A stretch of DNA of 43,673 bases from a virus. This document shows positions 4,507-36,195 of the stretch, piece by piece (the stretch's first letter is position 1; each line of letters starts with the position of its first letter). The stretch is taken from IMG/VR virus record IMGVR_UViG_3300033149_001421, positions 1 to 43,673 of that record; one strand, 5' to 3'. A program made the position numbers and the translations under genes. The notes below the pieces were generated by a model that saw only the letters and a list, made by a program, of their open reading frames with translations, ran no database searches and was not told the origin of the DNA.

Positions 4507-6606
4507 TTGGCAAAAAGAACTATTTCGCTTCCAACTATGACGCGCATGGCCCCCGTTGTTCCTTCTTCTGTGAATGTAGAAGAAAGAACTTTCGATATTG
4601 TTTGGACAACAGGAGCAAGAGTTCGTAGGGATTCGTACTGGGATGGCCCTTTTTACGAAGAGCTAGGTATTAAGAAATCTGAAGTTAGAATGGGCAGACT
4701 TAAAAATGGCGCTCCATTCCTAGATAACCATGGATTTACAGAAGCCCGTGGCGTTAAGCAAGTTCTAGGTGTCCATACAGAAGCTAAGTTAACTTCCGGT
4801 AAAGAAGGAACTGCTACTATAAAGCTTTCTAAGCGTGCAGTGGCGGACGGCATTCTAGATGATATCGCTGATGGCATCCTTCGCAATGTATCTGTTGGAT
4901 ACGACATCCATGCTATGAGAAAAGTAGGCGAGCAAGATGGCGTCCCTATTTTTAGAATCACAGACTGGGAACCTATCGAAAATTCGTTAGTTCCTGCGGG
5001 CGCTGATGATTTAGCTATGGTAAGAAATAAAAAAGCTGCCACACGAGAAATAGAAATAGAAGGGTTTGAAGACGAAACCCCAGCTACTACAACAGATCCC
5101 GAGCCTGATGCGGCTCGCTCTAATCCAGATATTGACAATAAGCCTATTAAGACAGACAATAATAGGGATAACCAACCTACGGGAGAACCACAGATGACAC
5201 CAGAAGAAATAGAAGCAAAGCGAAAAAAAGCGGCGGACGAGAAAGCGGAAGTAGCAAAAGTAGCTAGAGCAACGGAAAAGAAAAGAATTTCTGATATTCG
5301 TTCTACTGTTTCTAAAGCTGGTTTGGATATTAAATTAGCGGATACTTATATCGAAGATGATAAATCTATTGATGAAGTTCGTGAATTGGTTATTGATGCT
5401 TTACACGAAAAAGATAAGAAGCCAGAACAACAAACACGATCAACAAACTCAACTGTAGAAGTTGGGGACGATCTTGCTCGTAAAGCTAGAGTTAAAGGCA
5501 TGGGGGATTCTCTTCTCCATAGATATCGCCCAACTAGCATAAAAGATCCTAAAACGGGTGCTATAAGATCTGCTTATGAGATGACAGATGAAGCTAAACC
5601 TTACGCATACAGTTCTTTAACTGATTTAGCGCGTATGTGTTTAGAAGAAAATGGCGTAAGCACTCGTGGTTTAGCTAAACATCAAATTGCAGAAAAAGCT
5701 TTACAGCTAAGAGCGTCGCACGCTATTGCTGATTTTTCTGAGATCTTAGCTAATACAGTTAACAGAACATTAAGGGACGGCTATGCGGCTGCTCCTCAAA
5801 CCTGGAGAAACTTCACTAACATCGTTTTTGTTCCTGATTTCAAAGAAATTAGCAGAACAAACCTAGGCGATGCTCCTGAATTAAGAAAAGTTCAAGAGAA
5901 TGGTGAAGTTGAGCGCGGAACATTAAGCGAAGCAGCAGAGAAATACAGAGTAGAAGAGTTCGCTCGCATTGTAGCGATTTCTAGAAAGGTTATCGTAAAT
6001 GATGACTTAAACGCTATGACTAGACTACCCGATAGAATGGGTAGAAGAGCTGCTGATCTTGAGTCGGATACAGTTTGGGATATCATCAAAGCTAACCCAT
6101 TAATGTCTGATGGACTTGCTTTATTCTCAGCAGGTCACGGAAACCTTTCAACCGCGCCAGCCGCTCCTTCAGATACAGGTCTAGGCGAAGCTCGTAAGAA
6201 TATGAGAAGGCAAGTGGGGCTAGATGGAGCAGAAATTTCTATAGTTCCTATCTGGATGTATGTTCCACCTGAGCATGAGACTGCGGCGGAGAAGCTAATT
6301 GCTTCTATCGTTCCTGACTCATCCACGAATGTTAGCCCATTCTCTTCATCTGGAAGAACGCCGCTACAGCTTGCTGTAGAGCCTCGTATTGAGACTGGCG
6401 TGAATGGCACTATCAACCAATGGTTTGAGACTTCTAGTCTTGATCAAGTGGATATGATGGAGATGGCATTTTTAGAAGGAACCGATGGCCCTCAGATGGC
6501 TACTAGAGAAGGTTTCGATGTTGCTGGTATGGAGTTAAAAATAACTCACGATCTTGGCTCAAAAGCTATTGATCATAGAGGTCTTTTCAAGAACGCCGGT
6601 ATCTAA
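4507..6606 (+). CDS. prohead protease / major capsid protein fusion
   Basis: 699 residues with three parts. Residues 1-180 resemble an HK97-type (U35) prohead protease, with a GAPFLDNHGF motif carrying the candidate catalytic histidine and a later serine-containing strand (ILRNVSVGYDI). Residues 180-310 are a charged, low-complexity and helical linker (EEIEAKRKKAADEK) that looks like a scaffold. The rest looks like a Mu gpT-like major capsid domain (AAPQTWRNFTNIVFVPDF, ESDTVWDIIKANP). Fused protease/capsid genes are a known architecture; maturation would cut the chain. It starts with TTG at 4507, four bases after AAGGTGA. No separate scaffold or capsid gene exists nearby. Confidence 0.88.
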   Translation: MAKRTISLPTMTRMAPVVPSSVNVEERTFDIVWTTGARVRRDSYWDGPFYEELGIKKSEVRMGRLKNGAPFLDNHGFTEARGVKQVLGVHTEAKLTSGKEGTATIKLSKRAVADGILDDIADGILRNVSVGYDIHAMRKVGEQDGVPIFRITDWEPIENSLVPAGADDLAMVRNKKAATREIEIEGFEDETPATTTDPEPDAARSNPDIDNKPIKTDNNRDNQPTGEPQMTPEEIEAKRKKAADEKAEVAKVARATEKKRISDIRSTVSKAGLDIKLADTYIEDDKSIDEVRELVIDALHEKDKKPEQQTRSTNSTVEVGDDLARKARVKGMGDSLLHRYRPTSIKDPKTGAIRSAYEMTDEAKPYAYSSLTDLARMCLEENGVSTRGLAKHQIAEKALQLRASHAIADFSEILANTVNRTLRDGYAAAPQTWRNFTNIVFVPDFKEISRTNLGDAPELRKVQENGEVERGTLSEAAEKYRVEEFARIVAISRKVIVNDDLNAMTRLPDRMGRRAADLESDTVWDIIKANPLMSDGLALFSAGHGNLSTAPAAPSDTGLGEARKNMRRQVGLDGAEISIVPIWMYVPPEHETAAEKLIASIVPDSSTNVSPFSSSGRTPLQLAVEPRIETGVNGTINQWFETSSLDQVDMMEMAFLEGTDGPQMATREGFDVAGMELKITHDLGSKAIDHRGLFKNAGI

Positions 6607-6624
6607 TTTAATTTATAAGTAATA

Positions 6625-6641
6625 TCCGTCTAATAGGCGGA
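6625..6641 (+). other. intergenic hairpin between capsid and decoration genes
   Basis: TCCGTCT and AGGCGGA can form a 7-bp stem (one G-U pair) around a 3-base loop, 19 bases after the capsid stop. There is no T-run after it, so it is not a standard terminator. It could be an RNA-processing or stability element that helps set capsid versus decoration protein levels; that is inference. Confidence 0.4.
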
Positions 6642-6669
6642 CTTCCATATGAGCTAGGAGCTTTTTAAG

Positions 6670-6996
6670 ATGAAAAATTTCGTAAAACCAGGAAATATTC
6701 TAGAGTTTATCGCTACTGCTGATGTAGAAAGCGGCGAAGCTGTTTTAGTAGGAGCTAACCTTTTCGGGTACTCAGCTAATAAAACTTTAACTGGGGAAAA
6801 AGGTTCTCTAGTTGTAGAAGGCGAAGTGGACGTACCTAAGTTAGCTGCGGACAACATGGCTGTAGGCGCTAGTGTAAACTTCAATAGTGCAACCGGAGAA
6901 GTCCAGTTAGCTACTAGTACTAAAGATGGCGTCGGCCTTGTAACTGTGGCAGCAGCAGCAGCAACAACCGATGTTAGAATTAAGCTTACTCTTTAA
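6670..6996 (+). CDS. capsid decoration protein (DUF2190-like)
   Basis: 108 residues, immediately after the capsid fusion gene. The sequence shows the DUF2190 pattern: an N-terminal beta strand with a G-x-I-x-x-x-x-A motif (GNILEFIATADVESGEAVLVG), a central 'GSLVVEGEVDVPK' strand, and a small-residue loop ending in an alanine run before the last strand. Members of this family are head cement or decoration proteins that bind the outside of the capsid. The ribosome site is AGGAG. The product is small, acidic and probably abundant. Confidence 0.8.
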   Translation: MKNFVKPGNILEFIATADVESGEAVLVGANLFGYSANKTLTGEKGSLVVEGEVDVPKLAADNMAVGASVNFNSATGEVQLATSTKDGVGLVTVAAAAATTDVRIKLTL

Positions 6997-7013
6997 ATAG
7001 AAAAGGTTTGATC

Positions 7014-7346
7014 ATGGCCCGATCGCCGTTTTCTAAATTAGCGGATAAAGCTTTTAAACCTATCCGCGACACATTTAATACACCTATAGAATGGCTCCCT
7101 AAATCTGGGGGCCGCTATAGTTTTCTGGGTATATTCGATGACATAACGGAGATGATAGATCCTGACACTGAAGTTTTAGTATCAAGTAATTTATTTTCTT
7201 TAGGTTTTAGGTTTCTAGATCTCCCTTCTGCTCCGGTTGTCGGGGATAAAGCCATTATAAACGATAAAAAATATCGTGTAATAGAAGTAAAAGAAGATGG
7301 CGTGGAAGATGTTAGTGGCGTTCTAATAATGCATAAGGTGAGCTAA
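7014..7346 (+). CDS. head-tail connector protein (FII-like or Mu gp36 position)
   Basis: 111 residues. ATG 7014 was chosen over an in-frame TTG at 7008 because AAAAGG ends only 1 base before the TTG but 7 bases before the ATG. The pattern (strand-rich, a GDKAIINDKKYRVIEV hairpin near the C-terminus) fits small head-tail attachment proteins that sit under the portal. It occupies the Mu gp35/36 position between head genes and the gp37-like gene. The stop codon overlaps the next ATG. The exact family is uncertain. Confidence 0.55.
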   Translation: MARSPFSKLADKAFKPIRDTFNTPIEWLPKSGGRYSFLGIFDDITEMIDPDTEVLVSSNLFSLGFRFLDLPSAPVVGDKAIINDKKYRVIEVKEDGVEDVSGVLIMHKVS

Positions 7347-10665: not shown

Positions 10666-12591
10666 GTGGGAACAGAAAAAGAAGTCAGGATAAAGATAAG
10701 GGCTTTGGATAGAATTTCTAGAACCCTTTCCCGCGTAAGAAGACAGTTCCCTCAATTGGAACGTGCAGTTAAAAAGACTAGCAAGACGTTCCAACTTATC
10801 AATGAAAAAACTAAAAAATTTAGAAAGACGTTAAGCAAAGTAGGCGCTGGGATGAGAAAATTCGGCGGCTCTATGACGCGAGCTATAACTTTACCTGTAG
10901 GGCTTGCGGCTGCGGGTATAATAAAACTGGGAGTGGATTTTCAAAGGTCTATGAACAGGGTTGGCGCTTTAACGAGAACAATTATTGGCGGAAAAGTTAC
11001 TCCGCAATTTGAAGCTTTGGAAGCGCAAGCTCTTAAGCTAGGAGCTTCTACAGAGTTCACAGCCAGGCAAGTAGCGGATGCGATGGGCTTTATGGGAAGA
11101 GCGGGCTTTGGTGTTAACGAAATACTAGCTTCCACATCAGATGTTTTAGCTCTTGCAAGTGCAACGGGCATGGACTTGGCTTTCACCGCAGATGTAATGA
11201 CAAAAACAATAAGACAGTTTGGCCTCGAAGCGAAAGATGCTAGTAGAGTAGCGGATGTGTTGGCCGATGTATCTAGAAGAACGAATGTAGATCTAGAATC
11301 TATTTCGGAAACTATGAAAGATGCCGCGCCTATTGCTAAACAGTATGGCGCTACGCTGGAACAAACCGCAGCTCTTACAGGTCTTTTAGGCGATGTAGGT
11401 ATCCAAGGTAGTAAAGCCGGAACTACATTAAAAAATATATTTATAAAACTTGCCACTCCATCTAAAACAGCAATAAAGCTTTTAGAAAGAATGGGCATAA
11501 CAATAAAAAAGACTAATGGCGAAATGATGTCCGCAGGTGAAGTGCTAACTGCCATTGGCCCGAAAATAGGTGGCCTTAATAAAGGAAACCAACTCGCAAT
11601 AATGAATGAGCTTTTCGGCCTCAGAGGTATAGCAGGAGCGATGGCCTTGATGTCAAAGGCAATGGATGAAGGTAAAAACCCTGTTGCCACTTTAACTAAA
11701 ATATTAAAAGACAATAACGGTGTGGCTAAGGACATGCAAAAAACTATGTTGATAGGAGCGCCTGGGGCATTGGCTAGATTTAGTTCTGCATTGGAAGGAG
11801 CTGGATTAGCGTTTTCTAAATCAGGTATACTAGATGCGTTTACTTCTATACTAGAAACAACTACAGGCTGGTTTACCGCACTATCAAAACTTGATCCTGC
11901 TATTTTAAAAACTATAACTGTCATGGCAGCATTAGCGGCAGCTTTCGGCCCTATAGTTATAGGTATGGGGGCGATGCTAACCTTGGCTGCACAGCTAGCA
12001 ATAATAATACCAACACTTAACGTGGCGATGATACCGATGGCTATTACCGCAGGGATTATAGCATTTAAAATAATTCTTATATCCGCAGCTATAGGGGCTT
12101 TAGTGTTCTTAGTAACTAGGCTTATAGATAGATGGGAGCATATGCTTTCCGCTTTCAAAAGGAGTAAAGGAGTAATGAGCGGTTTAAAGAATTTCTTTGG
12201 GGCGTTCTTTACTGATCGGGATGAAGTAGCTATTTCTAGAAATGCAAAGAAAGGCGCTTTCCCTGGTAGAAATATTGATAGGGGTTTCGATCCTTTAAGT
12301 AAAATAAAAAGAAAAAGCCCAACAGAAAATGTAGAAGATACTTTTGTAAACTTAAGTAAACTTTTAGCTACCAATAAATCTAGAAGGGAAGAAGCTGGTA
12401 AAAAGCTATTCGGCCCTGCTATAGGAGCGTTAAGAGGTATAAATCAAATAGGTACGAGGGGCGTAACTCAAACCAATAATGCCAACGTAAAAATAGATAT
12501 AGCTGCGCCTCCAGGAACTAAAGTTAAATCAGAAGCGGACGATCCTTCTTTGTTTGGCTTAAACCTCGGAATGGTTGGGAGTATACAATAA
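10666..12591 (+). CDS. tail tape measure protein (TP901 type)
   Basis: 641 residues, the longest tail gene after the chaperones. It begins with GTG at 10666, 5 bases after the GAGGGAGC ribosome site. N-terminal basic helices (residues 1-60) precede a TP901-type tape measure domain (LGASTEFTARQVADAMGFMGRAGF, GATLEQTAALTGLLGDVGI). Two or three hydrophobic segments follow around residues 410-490 (for example TVMAALAAAFGPIVIG and AITAGIIAFKIILISAAIGAL), which are usual in tape measures and may reach the host inner membrane during injection. Gene length sets tail length; by family experience this would be a fairly short contractile tail. Confidence 0.92.
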   Translation: MGTEKEVRIKIRALDRISRTLSRVRRQFPQLERAVKKTSKTFQLINEKTKKFRKTLSKVGAGMRKFGGSMTRAITLPVGLAAAGIIKLGVDFQRSMNRVGALTRTIIGGKVTPQFEALEAQALKLGASTEFTARQVADAMGFMGRAGFGVNEILASTSDVLALASATGMDLAFTADVMTKTIRQFGLEAKDASRVADVLADVSRRTNVDLESISETMKDAAPIAKQYGATLEQTAALTGLLGDVGIQGSKAGTTLKNIFIKLATPSKTAIKLLERMGITIKKTNGEMMSAGEVLTAIGPKIGGLNKGNQLAIMNELFGLRGIAGAMALMSKAMDEGKNPVATLTKILKDNNGVAKDMQKTMLIGAPGALARFSSALEGAGLAFSKSGILDAFTSILETTTGWFTALSKLDPAILKTITVMAALAAAFGPIVIGMGAMLTLAAQLAIIIPTLNVAMIPMAITAGIIAFKIILISAAIGALVFLVTRLIDRWEHMLSAFKRSKGVMSGLKNFFGAFFTDRDEVAISRNAKKGAFPGRNIDRGFDPLSKIKRKSPTENVEDTFVNLSKLLATNKSRREEAGKKLFGPAIGALRGINQIGTRGVTQTNNANVKIDIAAPPGTKVKSEADDPSLFGLNLGMVGSIQ

Positions 12592-13800
12592 ATGGGTTTA
12601 CGAATCTCGCAATGGAAAACTAAATTTAGGGGCGGATCTTTTCGGGGAGCCGCATTTAAAATAAGAAGCCATCAAAAAGAAGGTGGGCGACGAGTACAGG
12701 AACACGAGTTCCCTCAGTTAGAACAAAACAGATCGGAAGATCTAGGCCGAAAGATCGGCAGGCATACGCTGGATCTGTACATCATTGCGGACGATTATTT
12801 TCCCGCACGCGATGCGCTAGAAGCTGCATTAAATAAAGAAGGTTCTGGGGAACTTATACATCCATACCTTGGCCGGTTAACAGTACAAGCCGGGGACTAT
12901 ATTTTAAGTGAGTCTGTAGATGAAGGCCGGATGGCTAGGTTTACAGTTAAGTTTTCTGAAGCGGGAGCAGCTAAGTTCCCACAGCAATTCGTGGACTCAA
13001 TTGCTAACGTGAGTTCTGGAGCTAATGAATACATAACGAGTAGTAAAAGTTCTTTCGAAGATATCTACTCGGTGGCCAATGCTCCAGCTTTCATAGTGCA
13101 ATCCGCAGCAGATGCTTTAACTACTGTGGCAGACTTTGCAGAAACAGCTATCAAAAAAGTAACACAGCCAGTGGCTAATTTAACTTTTGCATTAAGAAAT
13201 TTAAGAACAAGTGCAGAAGACTTAGTACAATTACCGGGAGAACTAGCGGACAGGTTATCCAGTTTCTTCGAAGACCTATTAGCTGAATTCGAAAACGATC
13301 AGGAAACATCTTCTAGGATAACAAAACAATTTAAAGATCTACAAGATGAGTATGAAGATGTAATAGGAGATACTCCTTCTAGAAACAGAGAGCGAGTAAA
13401 CCAGCAAGCTACTATTGATTTAACAAAAGATTTAGCTTTTGCAACTCAGTCGAAATCAGTATCAGAAACTCCTTTCGGATCTACACAGGAAGCAGTTACG
13501 GAGCGCGACGAGCTTATAAATAACTTAGATGACAGGGCTACAGAAGTAGCAGACAACGACGGCGACGATGATCTTTACCAAACAAATAAAGATCTTCAAG
13601 CTGCACTTATAAGAGCTGTTCCACAAGCTGGGCTTACTGAATTGATAAACTTTACTCCGCCGAAAACACTTCCGGCTCTAGTTATTGCTCACAACATTTT
13701 CGGCAACATAGATAAAGAGCAAGAGATCATAGATCAGAACAGCATAGAACATCCAGGGTTTACGCCTGGTAATGAATTAATAGAGGTATCAGGTGGCTAA
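12592..13800 (+). CDS. Mu gpN-like DNA circularisation/tail hub protein
   Basis: 402 residues, starting at the base after the tape measure stop. The first 120 residues match the DNA_circ_N domain: SFRGAAFKIRSHQKEGGRR, then HEFPQLEQNRSEDLGRK and 'GSGELIHPYLGRLTVQAGDY'. In Mu this protein is a baseplate hub/tail component (named for DNA circularisation). The C-terminal two thirds are helical and acidic. It overlaps gpP by 8 bases. Confidence 0.88.
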   Translation: MGLRISQWKTKFRGGSFRGAAFKIRSHQKEGGRRVQEHEFPQLEQNRSEDLGRKIGRHTLDLYIIADDYFPARDALEAALNKEGSGELIHPYLGRLTVQAGDYILSESVDEGRMARFTVKFSEAGAAKFPQQFVDSIANVSSGANEYITSSKSSFEDIYSVANAPAFIVQSAADALTTVADFAETAIKKVTQPVANLTFALRNLRTSAEDLVQLPGELADRLSSFFEDLLAEFENDQETSSRITKQFKDLQDEYEDVIGDTPSRNRERVNQQATIDLTKDLAFATQSKSVSETPFGSTQEAVTERDELINNLDDRATEVADNDGDDDLYQTNKDLQAALIRAVPQAGLTELINFTPPKTLPALVIAHNIFGNIDKEQEIIDQNSIEHPGFTPGNELIEVSGG

Positions 13801-27175: not shown

Positions 27176-27203
27176 TTGACTGCAAAGTCAAAGATACTAT
27201 ACT
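27176..27203 (+). promoter_or_regulatory. candidate sigma70 promoter, antisense to the early operon end
   Basis: TTGACT (27176-27181), 16-base spacer, TATACT (27198-27203), matching the consensus at 5/6 positions in each hexamer. Transcription would run into the antisense strand of the coiled-coil gene. TTGACT-GCAA-AGTCAA (27176-27191) is also a perfect 6-bp hairpin, so part of the match could be structural. Confidence 0.4.
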
Positions 27204-27696
27204 AGCCTTCTAGAAAATTTTCATCCTTTTTCTCTAACTTCATCAATCTTCTACTATATGCCATGGCCTTTTGGATATCTACGACTTCACCCAAAGTAAC
27301 CAAACACATTTCTCTAACAATAAGTTTCTTAAGAGAATCAATATTGTCCGCAACATCTTCCGCTGCCAGCTCTGCATCTTCTACACTATTCTCTACAGGA
27401 GCTGTTTTATTCTTATCTTTTTCCACTTGCTTTGCAGCAGCTTCTCTTTCTGCTTCAGCGGCTTCTGCATCTTCTTTTTCTTTTTCTTCAGCTTCTAAAG
27501 CTTCCAGCTCTGCATCTTCTTTAGCCGTTTCTTTTTCTTCATCAGATAGATCATCATTGTTATCTATCTCCGCAGCTTTTTCGTCAGCTTCTCTTTTCTT
27601 CTTTGCTGCTAATTCGTCTTCTCTTTTCTTTTTAGCTGCTCTTTCCTTATCAGCTTTAATTTTTGCTGCTTTTTGCTTTTCTGTTGGTTTCGCCAT
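27202..27696 (-). CDS. highly charged coiled-coil protein
   Basis: 164 residues. Residues 1-100 are nearly all A, K, E and D (for example KKKREDELAAKKKREADEKAAE), predicting a long single helix or coiled coil. The last 50 residues are less repetitive (LKKLIVREMCLVTLGEVVDIQKAMAYSRRLMKLE) and could be a small partner-binding domain. It is the last gene of the leftward operon. No family was recognised. The ribosome site GGAAGG is 9 bases upstream of the ATG. Confidence 0.65.
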   Translation of the reverse strand: MAKPTEKQKAAKIKADKERAAKKKREDELAAKKKREADEKAAEIDNNDDLSDEEKETAKEDAELEALEAEEKEKEDAEAAEAEREAAAKQVEKDKNKTAPVENSVEDAELAAEDVADNIDSLKKLIVREMCLVTLGEVVDIQKAMAYSRRLMKLEKKDENFLEG

Positions 27697-27747: not shown

Positions 27748-29955
27748 TTAACTAAAAACATCAACTTCATCAACTATAGAAGGCCACTTGACTGGGTGGC
27801 GGATAAATTTATCGAACTCTGCCCTAGAAGTTTCCAAGTTTGGCAGCTCATACACCCACTGGCGTTGCTCTCTAGATCCCAGTCTTCTATCTCCCATAGC
27901 GGGGCATGCTTTTTTAAGATCTTTGCCAAAAGCACTTGAGCTAGGCAGCCATGACCTTATTCCACGCTGTTTAGCATAGTTTATAAACGCATCCCTCATG
28001 CGGTTTCTAGACACTTTACTGGGCCACACGCCACTAGCCACATCCATCTCTGCAATCTGCCCATCTTGAAGCGACTGAAGCCACCACGCATGTACTAAGT
28101 TAAGACTCTCGATTTTCTGATCCAAAAGGCCAACAGTAGATGGCGCTTTATTTACATTTATAGTATCCACATCGAAGTCCATTAGCTCCTGAATCAACAG
28201 CCTATTCCCGCCTTCTTCATCTATATACTTTCGCATCTTCTTAAAAAATTTAGTATCTTGTCGCCTTGCATTCCCTACATTAAAGACCGCAAAACGTCGC
28301 TCGTCCTGTGTTGCTGGAGTAAGCCACTCTTCATTACCTATAATACATATGCGCGTGATGTTTTTAGCCATGTACATCTCACGGCCTTTTTGCTCTATAA
28401 GATGTTTATTACCAGTAATAAGATCTTTTAAAATACCTTCCGCTTGTTTATCACCACTCCAAAAAGCCTCATCCAAAACAAAGAGCAAAAGCTTTGAAAG
28501 GTGGTTGTTAAAGCTGGAAGTAAGGTATCTCTTATTTGAAGTAAGAAGGTAGTGCGCTCTGAATAGGTGGCCGATTCTATCTATTAAAGCATTCTTACCT
28601 ACACCTTTTTCACCTTTAAAAACGAGTGCAGTCGTGGGCTTTTGCTGTGGCTTCTGTATCATGTGAGCAAAGTATCCCATGAGCCAATGATATAAAGATT
28701 CGTCCCCATCACACACATTCTCTAGCGCATGCTCTTTAAACATGGCCACACCTTCTATAGCTTTTTTAGAAGGCTTTTCATCTTTGCCATAAGGCTCGCA
28801 GCTAAAACCACGCCAAAGATTATATACATCGTCGGGGACTTCGCAGTTAGGAAGCATTTCTACACGATCATAACTAGATCTATTCGGGGATGCCATCCAT
28901 ACTTCAGAAAGCTTATCCCATTTTTTACCTGCATATATCTCTTGTGACTTAAGCATGTCGTGAAAGGTATTAGTCTGTAAGTAAAGCACATCCCCGCAGG
29001 GAAGTTTTTTAAGTATCGTACTCCTGCCACCCATAACTACAAAAGAATATTCTTTGTTTATCTTCTCAATAGGAGAAGCCACATCGTCGTCTTCTGAAGG
29101 TTCTGCTTCTTCAAAGTCTGCTTCCGGCGCGTCAGATCCTGGCTCGTTTTGCCCATACTCAAAAGCGTTATCTATTTTTATTTTTAATTCATCACTGGGC
29201 CATGGCGGTCTACACTTAACATTCCAAAGATCAGACATAAGCTCGAAAGCTTTTTCTTCATCCACTCCAAGATCTTTACAGCGACTGGCCACTTTAAAAG
29301 TATGTTCGTCCCCAGCTTCACCTGCAATGGCTACTTTAGCTTTTCGCAAGTACTCTGTTACTCTTGCAATAGATGCCATGCTATTTATTTTTAAATTTTT
29401 ATTGTTACGAGTTCTTTTAGCTACAGTTTTTTCATTACACTTCTCTATCATCCATTCAGGAGCTTCTGCTATTTCGTAGTCATTTGAAAAAGTATAAGCT
29501 TTGCCATCAATTTCAGAACCAGCGCCAACGATATACCCGCCACGCGATCTTATATCTAAGCCAACACCTAAAACATTGGCCCCTTGTTTCACAGACTCCC
29601 TAGTTTTATAAACTAAGTGCATGCCGCCTGTAGGTGTTTTCTGTGTCATTGTAAGAGGGAATGCTTTTCCATTAAGCTCTAATTCATTAAGCGAATTTAC
29701 GCCATTCCTACCGTCTTTCATATCTACATCTACAACTAGAAGAGATCCTTCTTTATAGTTTGTTGTGGCTATACCTATATTATAAGGCTGCGGTATCTCC
29801 ATCACGGGATCTACCCACATCTTTTTTGCATCTTCTACAGTGTGCGCAGCCTTTTCAGTAAAATTGCTGATATGTGGCTTTTTACCATTCACTTGTAAAG
29901 GGAATACTTCAAAACCTTTACTAACTAGTTTTTCAATGTCGCCAATAGTATTCAT
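27748..29955 (-). CDS. bifunctional DNA primase-polymerase / helicase
   Basis: 735 residues with two domains. Residues 1-170 match the prim-pol (primase/polymerase) domain: catalytic acids in LLVVDVDMKDG (D76, D78) and histidine H113 in GGMHLVYK. Residues 195-270 resemble the primase C-terminal linker domain. Residues 440-640 are a superfamily 3/D5-like or DUF5906-type helicase: Walker A GEKGVGKNAL (448-457), Walker B LLLFVLDEAFW (about 490-499). The enzyme would synthesise primers and unwind the fork for the split polymerase upstream in the same operon. The family assignment is solid; helicase direction is unknown. Confidence 0.88.
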   Translation of the reverse strand: MNTIGDIEKLVSKGFEVFPLQVNGKKPHISNFTEKAAHTVEDAKKMWVDPVMEIPQPYNIGIATTNYKEGSLLVVDVDMKDGRNGVNSLNELELNGKAFPLTMTQKTPTGGMHLVYKTRESVKQGANVLGVGLDIRSRGGYIVGAGSEIDGKAYTFSNDYEIAEAPEWMIEKCNEKTVAKRTRNNKNLKINSMASIARVTEYLRKAKVAIAGEAGDEHTFKVASRCKDLGVDEEKAFELMSDLWNVKCRPPWPSDELKIKIDNAFEYGQNEPGSDAPEADFEEAEPSEDDDVASPIEKINKEYSFVVMGGRSTILKKLPCGDVLYLQTNTFHDMLKSQEIYAGKKWDKLSEVWMASPNRSSYDRVEMLPNCEVPDDVYNLWRGFSCEPYGKDEKPSKKAIEGVAMFKEHALENVCDGDESLYHWLMGYFAHMIQKPQQKPTTALVFKGEKGVGKNALIDRIGHLFRAHYLLTSNKRYLTSSFNNHLSKLLLFVLDEAFWSGDKQAEGILKDLITGNKHLIEQKGREMYMAKNITRICIIGNEEWLTPATQDERRFAVFNVGNARRQDTKFFKKMRKYIDEEGGNRLLIQELMDFDVDTINVNKAPSTVGLLDQKIESLNLVHAWWLQSLQDGQIAEMDVASGVWPSKVSRNRMRDAFINYAKQRGIRSWLPSSSAFGKDLKKACPAMGDRRLGSREQRQWVYELPNLETSRAEFDKFIRHPVKWPSIVDEVDVFS

Positions 29956-29967
29956 ACCTAAATCCTT

Positions 29968-30180
29968 TTAGCCTTTGTTTATAATATCTTTTAGCTCTAA
30001 CAGCTTCCTAGTACACGTCCGGTGTAGCTCCGCAGCTATATCTTTTACTTGTAAAAGTTCTTCTCCTGTAAGCCGGTCGAATTCGCCTTGAGAAGTTAAA
30101 TAATAAACCTCTACGCGACTGCCACCCTCGCAGGGAACCTCTTCTTTACTAACTTGAAATATAAAATCGTTATCACTCAT
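29968..30180 (-). CDS. small acidic hypothetical protein
   Basis: 70 residues from ATG 30180, overlapping the polymerase stop as ATGA and with AGAGG 7 bases upstream; a longer version from 30204 would start within the polymerase gene without a site. It has a beta-hairpin-like part (VPCEGGSRVEVYYL) and a helical C-terminus (LLQVKDIAAELHRTC). Two cysteines. It lies between polymerase and prim-pol genes, so a replication accessory role is possible but not shown. Confidence 0.6.
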   Translation of the reverse strand: MSDNDFIFQVSKEEVPCEGGSRVEVYYLTSQGEFDRLTGEELLQVKDIAAELHRTCTRKLLELKDIINKG

Positions 30181-31124
30181 TTTCTGTACCTCTTTCCTTC
30201 CCATCCATCTGCATTAATAGGTAAACCAGTAGCCCACTCTGGCACTTCGCACATAAGAGCTTCTGCTTCTGCTAAGGTTTTTTTATTATTATTTTTTACT
30301 TCAGATACAATTTCATCATGTACATGCATAACAACAGGGTAACCATTACTTTCCCACCTAAAAATGCCATCTCGTAAAAGATCCCTAGCCACCGCTTGTG
30401 TAATGTTTTCTGCAAGTAAACCGCCATATGCTGCTCGTCTTCTAAAGTGCCTATCCACTTCACTCTTATATGTTAGAGCGTTTTTAGGTTCCCCCCATGG
30501 CGTTCTTACTGTGGCCATACGTGGGTATGGGTAAAAAATTACTCTACCAGATGGCAACCTGCACATGAGAAAAGATCCTTTTTTCATATAAGTAATGTGC
30601 CGACCTTTAACGCCAACGTGAAATTTTTCACCGGGAGTTCTATTAGCGGCAATAGCTGCATCCTCTAAACGATACCAGTAGGCCACGATATTTCTATTAG
30701 CATCGCGCCACCGCTGTTTAATATCTTCAGCTTTTTGATCTGGTATTTTTACATTGTAGTTTTTAGCCATAGACTGGAAGGCCACAACGCCACCTTGAAA
30801 GCCCAGTGCCAATTCACTTACTTTACCAATTTGTCTTTGCTCTGATGTAACCTGATCCATTCTAATACCATAGATCTGCGTGGCCGCATGCTCGTACATC
30901 TTCCCATGTGTTCTAAAAATATTTAATTTATTTTCTTCACTAGCCAACCACGCCAACACCCGAGACTCGATAGATGAGAAATCGACAGCAATAAGTTTAT
31001 TGCCTGGGGCTGCGGTGATAAACCCACGAAGACAGCTAGCAATAGTCTTAAGTGGCGGCCCATAGAAAACATCTATGCTATCGCGCACATTTTTAAGCTT
31101 ATTTATTTTATTAAAATCAACCAT
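30177..31124 (-). CDS. DNA polymerase I-like, catalytic (palm/fingers) half of a split enzyme
   Basis: 315 residues holding all three polymerase motifs of family A: motif A around D48 (AVDFSSIESRVLAWLA), motif B/O-helix R97-K101-F109 (RQIGKVSELALGFQGG), and motif C H269-D270-E271 (MHVHDEIVSE). It lacks the exonuclease domain and the GRWAGR element, which are on a separate gene (31748-32836). It starts 'MVDFNKINKLKNVRDSIDVFYG', just before the region that precedes motif A in single-chain homologues. At the usual Tyr of the O-helix this protein has Phe109. Translation probably depends on coupling with the gene before it, as no strong ribosome site is seen. Confidence 0.88.
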   Translation of the reverse strand: MVDFNKINKLKNVRDSIDVFYGPPLKTIASCLRGFITAAPGNKLIAVDFSSIESRVLAWLASEENKLNIFRTHGKMYEHAATQIYGIRMDQVTSEQRQIGKVSELALGFQGGVVAFQSMAKNYNVKIPDQKAEDIKQRWRDANRNIVAYWYRLEDAAIAANRTPGEKFHVGVKGRHITYMKKGSFLMCRLPSGRVIFYPYPRMATVRTPWGEPKNALTYKSEVDRHFRRRAAYGGLLAENITQAVARDLLRDGIFRWESNGYPVVMHVHDEIVSEVKNNNKKTLAEAEALMCEVPEWATGLPINADGWEGKRYRK

Positions 31125-31383
31125 TAGAAGTGCTTTCTTCTTCTTCTTTCTTTTCTCCGCCAGTATCTATGTGGCCAACACCCATAAATTTCTTTTTAAA
31201 ATCTTCTGCCACTCTACAGTACTTATTTGTTTTCATAGTAAGAGAGCCATCCACTTTGCTAATATCTATGCTTTGATAGATTACAGCCGGTTTCCATCTA
31301 CCAAAAAACTTTAAGTCAACTTTATCAGTTATAATATACTTATTTTTTGTCTTCTTATGCTGCCACACAGTTATGTTACTCAT
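31117..31383 (-). CDS. small protein inserted between the polymerase halves
   Basis: 88 residues. The segment 'RWKPAVIYQSIDISKVDGSL' with a later 'YCRVAEDFKKKF' resembles DUF1653-like proteins (basic beta-barrel with W-x-P-x-V-I-Y and a C-terminal R-x-x-x-x-F), but the match is weak. The C-terminus is a run of glutamates. It overlaps both neighbours by a few bases (ATGA type), so it is co-translated with the polymerase halves. ATG 31383 has AAAGG 6 bases upstream. Confidence 0.6.
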   Translation of the reverse strand: MSNITVWQHKKTKNKYIITDKVDLKFFGRWKPAVIYQSIDISKVDGSLTMKTNKYCRVAEDFKKKFMGVGHIDTGGEKKEEEESTSNG

Positions 31384-31751
31384 ATCAAACCTTTCTCTTT
31401 AGCCAACCACTCCGCCATCTCAAGTTCTTCGTAAAAACCTTTTTCAAGATCATTGCCATCACGTATCTGCGATCTAGGTAGCCACTCTTCCACTCCATCA
31501 ATTTCTGCAAGTACTGCTTTATCTGTAGATCCTACTATGGTTACTTCGCTAGTGAATACATATTCTATTTCTTTCATCACTCTTCCCTTTTTTGTCTTTT
31601 CATCAATATCGTAAGCGATACCTTTGTTTTTTAACGCAAATGCTATAAGCAAAGCCGACGCTGCTATAACTACTTCTGTGTGGCGGGTGTAGCTGCTCCA
31701 TACTAGCGGAACCATGATAAGCGCTTCCACTATAATTCTTAAAATTCTCAT
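31380..31751 (-). CDS. membrane-segment protein with phage 'WLPRSQI' domain, between polymerase halves
   Basis: 123 residues. The first 42 residues hold two hydrophobic segments (ILRIIVEALIMVPLVW and VVIAASALLIAFAL). Residues 60-123 form the compact domain with 'TDKAVLAEIDGVEEWLPRSQI' and a C-terminal AEWLAKEKGLI helix, a pattern frequent in small phage early proteins of unknown function. Here it is fused to a membrane part, which is unusual. It overlaps the exonuclease half upstream by 4 bases and the next gene by 4 bases. Confidence 0.6.
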   Translation of the reverse strand: MRILRIIVEALIMVPLVWSSYTRHTEVVIAASALLIAFALKNKGIAYDIDEKTKKGRVMKEIEYVFTSEVTIVGSTDKAVLAEIDGVEEWLPRSQIRDGNDLEKGFYEELEMAEWLAKEKGLI

Positions 31752-32836
31752 TTTACTTTCCCTAACATATTTAATACTTCTTCAATTTCTTTTTGTTTTA
31801 ATTTAGGGCGTGGGAAGTTTTGTAACTGTATGCCCCGCCCTGCCCATCTTCCTGTCGACGCTGCGCCGTAGTACTGAAGGCAGCCTTTAACTCTGCCATC
31901 TTTGTTCTGGTAAGCGATCATTTTTTTAATTTTACTTACAGAACTTTTTGCAGCGGACTGCCTTACATCTAAAACTCGTCTTACTTTTTTTGGTAATTTT
32001 TCTCTAGCCAACAACTCGATAACTGTAGCAGCGTCCACGGACTCAGTTTCTACGCCCTGCTCATTCACCCATTTTCTTAATGCAGCATGCGCGTTGCAAC
32101 TTGATACGACATTTTTAGTTAGCTTTTGCATGCTTTCATTAAGGTTAAAAGCTTCTATAGTCGCCAACATAATAGCGTTTTTACCTGCTCTGATATCAAT
32201 ATACACGCCACGGTCATTGATGCATTGATCTAAAAGCCACATCTTTCTCTCAGTTTCATCTAGCGGAACCATACGCTTGAACGCTTCCCGCATAACATCT
32301 ATATCAGTCGCGCAGTAGCTATAAGTATCGTCGTATTTTTTATTAATATCTAAAGAAGGAGTACTGTCTTCGCGCTCCCACCACGTTATCTTACCTTTTT
32401 CATCTACGTTTCTGGGCTTTGCCAATTGCAACATGACACGGTGGCCACGCATATCTTTTTCTATTTTAAGGCCAAGGCATACCGCCATATTTTCAAGGCT
32501 TGCCATGATCCCCATAGAGAGAGCCATTACCATAGTGCAGAAAATTTGTTCTATAGGGATTGGTGGCCAACCATATCTTACATGTAAAACATAGTGCCAT
32601 ATAAGCCTATCAAAGTTGGCGTTATGCGCATAAAACTCCGCGCCATCTTCAATAAGTTTAAAAAGTTCTTCAGGTATTTCATCGCCATCTAGTGGCCTAT
32701 ATACTTTAACCGGCCCGTCATCTACAGCCCACCCTAAACAAACGATATCTGTTGTAGGATGTTGAGCATAAACGTGCGTGCCTGCCTTTCTAAGATCGAC
32801 AGTACTACGAGTTTCAAAGTCAAAAAATACTTTCAT
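31748..32836 (-). CDS. DNA polymerase I-like, 3'-5' exonuclease half of a split enzyme
   Basis: 362 residues from ATG 32836 (AAAAGG 6 bases upstream; the TTG at 32842 is less likely). It has all exonuclease motifs: ExoI D6-x-E8 (FFDFETRS), ExoII D76 (AHNANFDR), ExoIII Y174-x3-D178 (YCATD). It then continues into the polymerase thumb/palm and stops after 'GAASTGRWAGRGIQLQNFPRP' (about 323-344), the element that in one-chain enzymes precedes motif A. Together with the 30177-31124 gene it adds up to about 677 residues, a normal full length for this polymerase group. The stop is a clean end overlapping the next gene, not an obvious frameshift. Confidence 0.88.
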   Translation of the reverse strand: MKVFFDFETRSTVDLRKAGTHVYAQHPTTDIVCLGWAVDDGPVKVYRPLDGDEIPEELFKLIEDGAEFYAHNANFDRLIWHYVLHVRYGWPPIPIEQIFCTMVMALSMGIMASLENMAVCLGLKIEKDMRGHRVMLQLAKPRNVDEKGKITWWEREDSTPSLDINKKYDDTYSYCATDIDVMREAFKRMVPLDETERKMWLLDQCINDRGVYIDIRAGKNAIMLATIEAFNLNESMQKLTKNVVSSCNAHAALRKWVNEQGVETESVDAATVIELLAREKLPKKVRRVLDVRQSAAKSSVSKIKKMIAYQNKDGRVKGCLQYYGAASTGRWAGRGIQLQNFPRPKLKQKEIEEVLNMLGKVK

Positions 32837-32947: not shown

Positions 32948-33547
32948 TTAACTAAACATATTTGTAGCAGAAGCCGCTGGCGCATCTGCAACTGTGTTGC
33001 CACCTGCTACGGGAGCAAAGTCATCCTGTGGCTTAGTACGGTTTCCAAACGGATCTCCATCCTTTTGCTTTTGGATATTACCAAGGCCGAAAGAAATACC
33101 GCGGTTTCCTTTTTGATCATAAGCAAAAGCATTTATAGAAGCCACCGCATAACACCCGCCGTAAAAATCTGCGGTATCAATGATGTCTGATACCTGCTGA
33201 TCTACAACACCTGGGCGATCTGTAGTACGAAGTGTAAGAAAAGTAGCTCCTGCTTCGTAGCCATCCGGCAGTGTCACCTGTCCTGCATCATTCTTTTTTG
33301 CCTTGTCGCCTTGATCTCTAAATGGAGTTTTCAAACCTGTGGGCCACTTAGTTTGATCTGCTCCCCACTTATTAATAGCTGCATTCATCGCTAAAGTTTT
33401 TAACGAAGAGAGGTCTTCGCCTTTAGCAAAAAGAGCTACGATACTGTACTCGTCTTTTCCATTCATATCGTTTCTACGTGGCTTAAACACGTTAGGAAAC
33501 GCTACTCTAAACATCGGCGTATTGCCTTTTGTTACTGCTGTTGTCAT
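32948..33547 (-). CDS. DUF2815 family, ssDNA-binding-like protein
   Basis: 199 residues. ATG 33547 was chosen because GGAAGG lies upstream with good spacing; an upstream in-frame start (33565) has none. The DUF2815 pattern is clear: 'PMFRVAFPNVFKPR', 'EYSIVALFAKGED', 'GCYAVASINAFAYDQKGNRGISFGLGNIQK', and an acidic/proline C-terminal tail ending in F. These proteins are OB-fold-like and considered single-strand DNA-binding proteins of phages. It is encoded just before the polymerase, as in other phages with this replication set. Confidence 0.85.
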   Translation of the reverse strand: MTTAVTKGNTPMFRVAFPNVFKPRRNDMNGKDEYSIVALFAKGEDLSSLKTLAMNAAINKWGADQTKWPTGLKTPFRDQGDKAKKNDAGQVTLPDGYEAGATFLTLRTTDRPGVVDQQVSDIIDTADFYGGCYAVASINAFAYDQKGNRGISFGLGNIQKQKDGDPFGNRTKPQDDFAPVAGGNTVADAPAASATNMFS

Positions 33548-33577
33548 ACTTAATTCCTTCCACAAAAAATGTTATAT

Positions 33578-34260: not shown

Positions 34261-35064
34261 TTAGCCTTTCACGACTTTAAAATCTTTTTTCGGATCGCTC
34301 TTAAATCTTGGCATCATTGCCTTACTTCTTTTTGCTTCTTTAGCCTTTATGCTTTCAGGACATAAATGAATTGCAGCGCAAAAAAAGCAGTGCGCTCCTG
34401 ACTCGAAGTGTGGCTTTTTATGTTCTGTTCTTTTTGCTGCGGCAATAAGATCCGCTCTAAAATCTAACATCGTTTCCACTCCTACTATCCAATTTCTTAT
34501 TGGCCCTTTAGGGTGGAAGGCACGCGGCTGCACTACAACCAGCTCAACCGCGCGGAAAGGATAGTTCAAAGTGGTAATTGCGCCTAGGGCATAGTATAGG
34601 AGCTGGGTGTTGTTCTCTACCTCAACTACCAAACCTTTGCCATGTTTATAGTCGACAACTTTTAAGTATTTATCAGTAGGGTTGTAAGAAACAAAGTCAG
34701 CAGTGCCAAAGGCGTCGGGATATACTTTTTCCATATCAAAACTATGCTCAACATGAAAATTATTATTAGGTTCTAAGTCTTTCATTCTTTGTATGTAGTC
34801 AGTGTAAACAGAAATAGCTTTTACCATTTCATCTAGCTCTGACATGGAAAGATCGAACTCGTCGGGGATTGGCCAATAGCCTTTCTCTAAATAAAAAGCA
34901 GCCACCTCGTGAGCTATAGTTCCCATGATAGCGTGGATAGATGAAGAAGGTTTTTCTGAAAGATCACACATCTGGACACTACCAGGACATCTGCTCCATC
35001 GGTACATAGAACTAGCACCAATTTTACTATGCTTCGTGTTATCTACTATTTCTTTTATCGACAT
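34261..35064 (-). CDS. DUF2800 family, Cas4-like PD-(D/E)XK nuclease
   Basis: 267 residues. Signature elements: 'SSMYRWSRCPGS' near the N-terminus, 'GTIAHEVAAFYLEKG' (residues 49-63), the nuclease core FGTADFVSYN then LKVVDYKHGKG (D and K of the D...D/E-x-K motif), and a C-terminal cysteine cluster HCFFCAAIHLCPE that with the early Cys could hold an Fe-S cluster as in Cas4/AddB. It would resect DNA ends and feed recombination-dependent replication along with the SSB-like protein and RuvC-like resolvase of this operon. Confidence 0.85.
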   Translation of the reverse strand: MSIKEIVDNTKHSKIGASSMYRWSRCPGSVQMCDLSEKPSSSIHAIMGTIAHEVAAFYLEKGYWPIPDEFDLSMSELDEMVKAISVYTDYIQRMKDLEPNNNFHVEHSFDMEKVYPDAFGTADFVSYNPTDKYLKVVDYKHGKGLVVEVENNTQLLYYALGAITTLNYPFRAVELVVVQPRAFHPKGPIRNWIVGVETMLDFRADLIAAAKRTEHKKPHFESGAHCFFCAAIHLCPESIKAKEAKRSKAMMPRFKSDPKKDFKVVKG

Positions 35065-35505: not shown

Positions 35506-36195
35506 TTACAAAAAGCTTGTACTAGCTGCGTTGTTATTGACAGCCGCAATGCCGCTACATGCTTCTACAAATTTAGGGTAGTCCATCTCTTTAATTTCAC
35601 TTACACGATCAGCTTTAAACTCTGTAAGAAGCTCCCTTACTTTTTCCATACCATGATCAGCACTTACTTTTTGAAGCGCTTCAGTGACATGATCTTTTGT
35701 AACAACAGGAGCTTTGTTAGTTTCTGTTTTTTTAGATGGAGAATTTAAAAAGTCATCAGTAGCTTTCGACACCGCTTGTGGTGAAGCAGAACTAGCAGGG
35801 TTTAAGAAATCCCCTACAGATGCGCTTTTACCTTCAGCATTCGTACTGTGTATGACACCGGGAGCGTCAAGGTTTAAGTTATCTATGTTCATAGCCGCAG
35901 AGCTGAAAGCTTCAGAGATAGCATTGCCTAGAGCAGCCACAGCGTTTATGGTTTTTTGCTGCAATTTAATTAAAGTAGCCAACTGTGGATTGCTTGCAGG
36001 TGTTTTTGTAGTGGGAGTAGCCTTAACCGTTGCATTGGCTCTCTTAGCCACAGGCTTTGCTGCTTTAGTAGCTTTTTTTGCTACTCTCGTTGCTGCCTTT
36101 TTTGCTACCTTAGCTCTTTTAGCAGGAGCTTTCTTTGCTACTTTCTTCGCAGCTTTCTTTTTAACTGGTTTCTTTTTTGAAGACGCGCGTGCCAT
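35506..36195 (-). CDS. histone H1-like lysine/alanine-rich protein with C-terminal phage domain
   Basis: 229 residues. Residues 1-65 are composed of repeats such as KKAAKKVAKKAP and AKKAATRVAKKA, as in H1-like bacterial proteins (HctB, AlgP). Residues 70-110 are a helical, alanine-rich part; 110-165 a low-complexity S/A/N linker; 165-215 a compact domain (VTEALQKVSADHGMEKVRELL then MDYPKFVEAC) that resembles a domain found in phage ssDNA-binding or recombination-related proteins. It would bind DNA non-specifically, possibly compacting or protecting phage DNA. It has its own promoter-like sequence upstream, unusual in this operon. Confidence 0.75.
   Translation of the reverse strand: MARASSKKKPVKKKAAKKVAKKAPAKRAKVAKKAATRVAKKATKAAKPVAKRANATVKATPTTKTPASNPQLATLIKLQQKTINAVAALGNAISEAFSSAAMNIDNLNLDAPGVIHSTNAEGKSASVGDFLNPASSASPQAVSKATDDFLNSPSKKTETNKAPVVTKDHVTEALQKVSADHGMEKVRELLTEFKADRVSEIKEMDYPKFVEACSGIAAVNNNAASTSFL

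Follow-up and report, generated by a model that had tools for sequence, protein, structure and literature searches.

A family A DNA polymerase encoded in two genes by a phage, and probable recurrent gene fission among its relatives

The phage sequence analysed here (the window, all 43,673 nucleotides of IMG/VR virus record IMGVR_UViG_3300033149_001421) encodes a family A DNA polymerase as two separate genes with two further genes lying between them. We consider it likely that the polymerase gene underwent fission within a linker and that its products form a two-polypeptide replicase; judged from the sequences, the halves would associate non-covalently, and the inserted genes would be dispensable for assembly. 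An earlier note on this DNA had described a split polymerase with two genes between its parts, and the open reading frames, coordinates and motifs are as given there. The genes at the locus and in its immediate context are:

34261..35064, minus strand: DUF2800 / PD-(D/E)XK nuclease, context (PF10926, 4.4e-47)
32948..33565, minus strand: Enc34-type ssDNA-binding protein (SSB), upstream context (PF10991, 1.4e-36)
31748..32836, minus strand: N half of the family A DNA polymerase, 362 aa, ending inside the phage-specific linker (phrog_17, E 4.7e-47; motifs)
31380..31751, minus strand: 123-aa protein between the halves (phrog_8389, E 2.7e-9; hydropathy)
31117..31383, minus strand: 88-aa protein between the halves (phrog_11651, E 2.4e-10)
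30177..31124, minus strand: C half of the polymerase, 315 aa, palm and fingers (Pfam DNA_pol_A, 8.8e-18; phrog_17)
29968..30204, minus strand: 78-aa ORF in the interval between the C half and the primase, where the relative L001 (below) has an HNH endonuclease gene
27748..29955, minus strand: Prim-Pol/DUF5906 primase-helicase, downstream context (PF09250, 2.1e-28; PF19263, 3.1e-16)

Along the minus strand the order of transcription is SSB, N half, 123-aa gene, 88-aa gene, C half, 78-aa ORF and primase. The N half overlaps the 123-aa gene, and the 123-aa gene the 88-aa gene, through ATGA, as had been reported; the report did not hold at the third junction, where the 88-aa gene and the C half share 8 nt (ATGGTTGA).

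The N half comprises the 3'-5' exonuclease and the thumb of a family A DNA polymerase together with its STGRWAGR...QNFPRP element, and the C half carries motifs A, B and C. We found the exonuclease motifs at D6/E8, N72...F75-D76 and Y174...D178 of the N half, with D6, E8, Y174 and D178 invariant in alignments A1 and A6; across alignment A6 the catalytic residues and the TGRW/QN/PR motif are conserved. In the C half, motif A is at D48, motif B at R97...K101 and motif C at H267-V-H269-D270-E271, and D48, R97, K101, H269 and D270 are invariant in alignment A11. This agrees with the earlier description of a complete exonuclease in the 362-residue gene and motifs A, B and C in the 315-residue gene. 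Against phrog_17, the PHROG DNA polymerase profile, the N half matches positions 673–989 and the C half positions 992–1232; as these stretches abut, the polymerase is complete, with nothing missing. The halves had also been said to sum to a normal full-length polymerase, and their 677 residues (362 + 315) compare with 669 in the fused enzyme of L001.

The nearest relatives of the window, L001 (IMG/VR 3300033407_000044) and L015, carry the same polymerase as a single gene, and the L001 protein is 53% identical to the N half and 60% identical to the C half. What is one gene in these relatives is two complete genes in the window, with nothing lost. The closest annotated phage record, L006 (MW202898), is also fused (44 and 51% identity to the N and C halves), and the polymerases of L001 and L006 share family and neighbours with that of the window, differing in being one gene instead of two. 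Polymerase is followed by primase in fused L001, L002, L003 and L006, as in the window. Fusion is the prevailing state, found in 159 of 174 fetched loci (duplicate contigs partly included) and in 81 of 88 in a second tally of fetched loci. Scans of bacterial genome contigs gave no relative at first and nine on the second occasion, none of the nine being split, although the short contig L187 stops before the gene is complete. A search for closer relatives of the window again returned the fused L001 and L015 plus distant ones. The homologue search that the earlier note had proposed thus shows close relatives that are fused and some others, described below, that are split. When annotated phages were searched for split polymerases with tblastn, the records opened were fused, and Javan93 was annotated as two pieces; we rejected Javan93 as a comparable split, its break lying inside the exonuclease and probably reflecting a frameshift. 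The 383-aa polymerase of Ralstonia phage Simangalove in BFVD could be another fragment. Two fused members, L077 and L088 (~6270–7210), contain an intein-like insertion of ~300 residues at motif B, and in L001 the fused polymerase gene overlaps at its end with a free-standing HNH endonuclease gene (6870–7247).

The position of the break coincides with a feature of this phage family. In fused members, 35–46 residues separate the QN.PR motif from an RG.. motif (27 sequences in which both motifs were found automatically). By profile alignment the two motifs are adjacent in the solved cellular Pol I 8jrb, so the phage family has gained the linker. An AlphaFold model of the L001 polymerase (mean pLDDT 94.6, pTM 0.90), whose nearest solved structures by Foldseek are Klenow-type polymerases, shows the linker as a helix (347–359), a two-residue turn and a second helix (362–373), and the end of the window's N half aligns to the turn predicted between these helices. 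Modelled alone, the C half reached a mean pLDDT of 89.0, with values of 51–63 over its first 30 residues, a stretch that includes the equivalent of helix 362–373. This low-confidence start is consistent with an interface between the halves at that point. The break had been placed at the linker ahead of motif A, and we can now describe that linker as phage-specific and as running from the QN.PR element to motif A. In L007 (Shewanella phage SppYZU01) and L010 (Acinetobacter phage Scuro) the polymerases are fused and the linker holds a cysteine-rich, zinc-finger-like insertion, which indicates that it tolerates additions.

Other members of the family are split as well. Loci were flagged if their two halves had best matches in different frames, so that breaks elsewhere in the gene could be detected too. 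The splits of L182, of L017 and L026, and of L176 and L177 fall, like that of the window, in the 35–46-residue helix-loop-helix linker. L182 is cut at the same point, and no gene separates its halves, which overlap by ATGA; a strong ribosome-binding site (AGGAGGT) stands a few bases ahead of the ATG of the C half. L017 and L026 have one gene of ~59 aa between the halves, 53% identical between the two and unrelated to the window's inserts. In L176 and L177 the halves are ~10 kb apart on opposite strands, the N half next to SSB-DUF2800 and the C half next to the primase; both keep their usual neighbours:

1337–2434 and 12528–13478, opposite strands: polymerase halves of L176 (G002); L177 (G003) has the same arrangement

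The N half of L176 and L177 ends at a tRNA-Lys gene, the stop codon overlapping the tRNA in L176, and lies beside a DUF4102-type integrase in the clade, with the C half on the other strand beyond putative regulator genes. Five further contigs (L021, L031, L032, L036 and L039) carry an N half with the same end point, the C half being absent from the contig. L164 (4480–4780) has another split family A polymerase, but here it is the thumb that is cut; a 63-aa ORF separates the pieces, and GGAGGAGA precedes the start of the second gene.

These splits point to more than one event. On a tree of 60 rows, built from both halves with six split rows and sampled from relatives found by N- or C-half patterns, the fused/split label has to change four times, and well supported branches force three of those changes; the window clusters with L001 and L015, both fused (SH-aLRT 100). 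A single clade of all six split rows was rejected (AU p = 6e-5, somewhat optimistic since the groups were chosen once the tree was known). That the gene has undergone fission more than once in this polymerase family is, on this rejection, well supported by the sequences. A clade of the window with L017, L026 and L182 was not rejected (AU p 0.15), and the window and the L017 group may share one fission, followed by re-fusion in L001 and L015.

The two inserted genes match solely PHROGs of unknown function. The 123-aa protein, earlier described as a membrane-segment protein, has hydrophobic stretches at residues 3–17 and 26–40 by hydropathy, and its C-terminal part matches phrog_8389. Ahead of that part is a second in-frame ATG (M59), so the membrane part may not always be made. 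The 88-aa protein had been called DUF1653-like, an identity we rejected as unsupported: it has no Pfam match at E<0.01 and is matched just by phrog_11651 and, weakly, phrog_19795. Among phage records it had no tblastn match at E<=0.01. The same note proposed the inserted proteins as assembly or localisation partners, and one or both could in principle be genuine subunits, tethering the split polymerase or helping it to assemble: the small genes overlap both halves, making translational coupling probable, and two hydrophobic segments would suit such a role for the 123-aa protein. We regard this as improbable, however, in view of the other split phages, which have no insert (L182), an unrelated one (L017 and L026) or halves far apart (L176 and L177). 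Relatives of the 123-aa protein also occur away from polymerase breaks, upstream of the fused polymerase in L001 and near dCMP-deaminase genes in Pseudomonas phages. Because other split phages carry different inserts or none, and relatives of the 123-aa protein occur elsewhere, both genes are probably passengers at a tolerated site.

Another alternative is that the polymerase is decaying or non-functional and that a host or other polymerase replicates the phage. Gene fragments do occur, as Javan93 shows. This reading is improbable here: all catalytic motifs are intact in the two halves, which have their own start and stop signals, several lineages have kept both halves, and the query used found no other polymerase gene, fused or otherwise, in the window's record. 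Constraint could also be measured in one case. Within the dispersed split clade dN/dS is 0.08–0.16 for the N halves, and between L176 and L177 it is 0.30 for the N half and 0.28 for the C half. Purifying selection is acting in this clade, the sole one in which it was measurable; between the window and its nearest relatives synonymous divergence is near saturation and the ratio is not useful. The N halves of the split clades aligned keep TGRW and QN.PR, which are residues of the polymerase core. In Pol I this element (for instance Klenow R668 and its neighbours) is part of the polymerase site, and a stand-alone exonuclease would have no need of it.

Two other explanations are very improbable. 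In the first, a self-splicing intron, an intein or frameshifting would unite the halves after transcription or translation, and inteins occur in the family (L077 and L088). Those inteins lie at motif B and not at the window's break, the halves of L176 and L177 are on opposite strands, and at each junction in the window one gene's stop codon and the next gene's start codon mark two separate genes that overlap. An Rfam search at a permissive threshold gave chance matches only and no credible intron element in the region, and overlapping genes fill the 0.6-kb insert completely, in keeping with the earlier observation of no intein or intron signal. In the second, equally improbable, the locus would be a chimera or contain a misassembled insert. 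Only one record has the window's exact arrangement, no other phage with it having been found, and the state of this one phage therefore rests on one assembly; against an artefact, genes overlap at every junction and GC3 of the inserts (0.315–0.339) is near that of the neighbours (0.326–0.373), so the assembly looks sound, and independent contigs are split at the same place.

Returning to fission in the linker with reassembly of the products, we propose that the polymerase gene was cut between the thumb/QN.PR element and motif A, and that an exonuclease-plus-thumb and a palm-plus-fingers polypeptide would be translated from a single operon of overlapping genes and join non-covalently to give one working polymerase-exonuclease. 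The small genes may have arrived once the polymerase gene was split, or together with whatever split it. The trigger of the fission is a guess, for example a homing endonuclease or illegitimate recombination. An HNH endonuclease gene sits right behind the fused polymerase of L001, making an endonuclease-driven origin possible; none remains at the window's break, and a homing endonuclease gene between the pieces, as in mobE-type fission, is absent. The two-subunit replicase of the earlier note is in line with the fused relatives, the splits at the same point (including the ribosome-binding site of L182) and the purifying selection in one clade. Given the core motifs kept in the N half, the constraint and published split enzymes that reassemble, non-covalent reconstitution is the simplest reading.

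Split phage replicases of family B are already known, and family A examples have been known since 2023. In Methylophilales phages MEP401 and MEP402 and related marine genomes (OP830906) a family A polymerase is split around a small ORF (PMC10580990), so the earlier view that a family A split is unusual is only partly right. As in the window, two ORFs (exonuclease plus N-terminal part, and C-terminal part) flank a small ORF of unknown function, and introns have been suggested for the MEP401 polymerase (PMC10580990). The MEP401/MEP402 polymerases differ in belonging to another lineage, in having no long linker and one 77-aa insert, and in breaking ~15 profile positions nearer motif A (phrog_17 1003/1008 vs 989/992 in the window); MEP401 is a further split case at a slightly different site. 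The T4-type family B polymerases gp43A/gp43B of Aeromonas phages 25 and 44RR are likewise replicative phage polymerases in two genes with something lying between, and the phage 25 pieces co-purify and are active (PMC2988022); unlike in the window, the insert is untranslated sequence or a seg-type homing endonuclease gene. Another fissioned essential phage enzyme is the genes-in-pieces ribonucleotide reductase NrdA of Aeh1, whose pieces reassemble from two polypeptides and are fully active (PMC2988022); it is associated with the MobE homing endonuclease, whereas the window's break has none. Within the open-licence PMC literature, outside which family A splits may already have been described, what is new here is a second family A lineage, recurrent fission, a site with a structural reason and a range of arrangements. 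The analysis rests on metagenomic contigs.

It is conceivable, though we put it forward only tentatively, that the linker is a repeated fission point at which splitting is kept because it is useful. Its use could be that two different operons can then supply the halves, as in L176 and L177, where the halves flank a putative regulator region. If so, the replicase would form only with both operons on, and the exonuclease half might act alone. Replicases are among the most constrained enzymes. The surviving arrangements (fused, a bare ATGA split, a split with one gene, a split with two genes, and opposite operons) would form a natural series for testing how a single-chain essential enzyme becomes a two-subunit one, and polymerase engineers would find in the linker a split site ready for use. 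Such phages would be misread by gene callers, and by surveys of polA as a single gene, as having truncated polymerases.

Elsewhere in the window, two proteins (35506–36195 and 51–779) have long lysine/alanine-rich, histone-tail-like stretches, and a 164-aa highly charged (K/E/A-rich) protein is encoded directly downstream of the primase (27202–27696).
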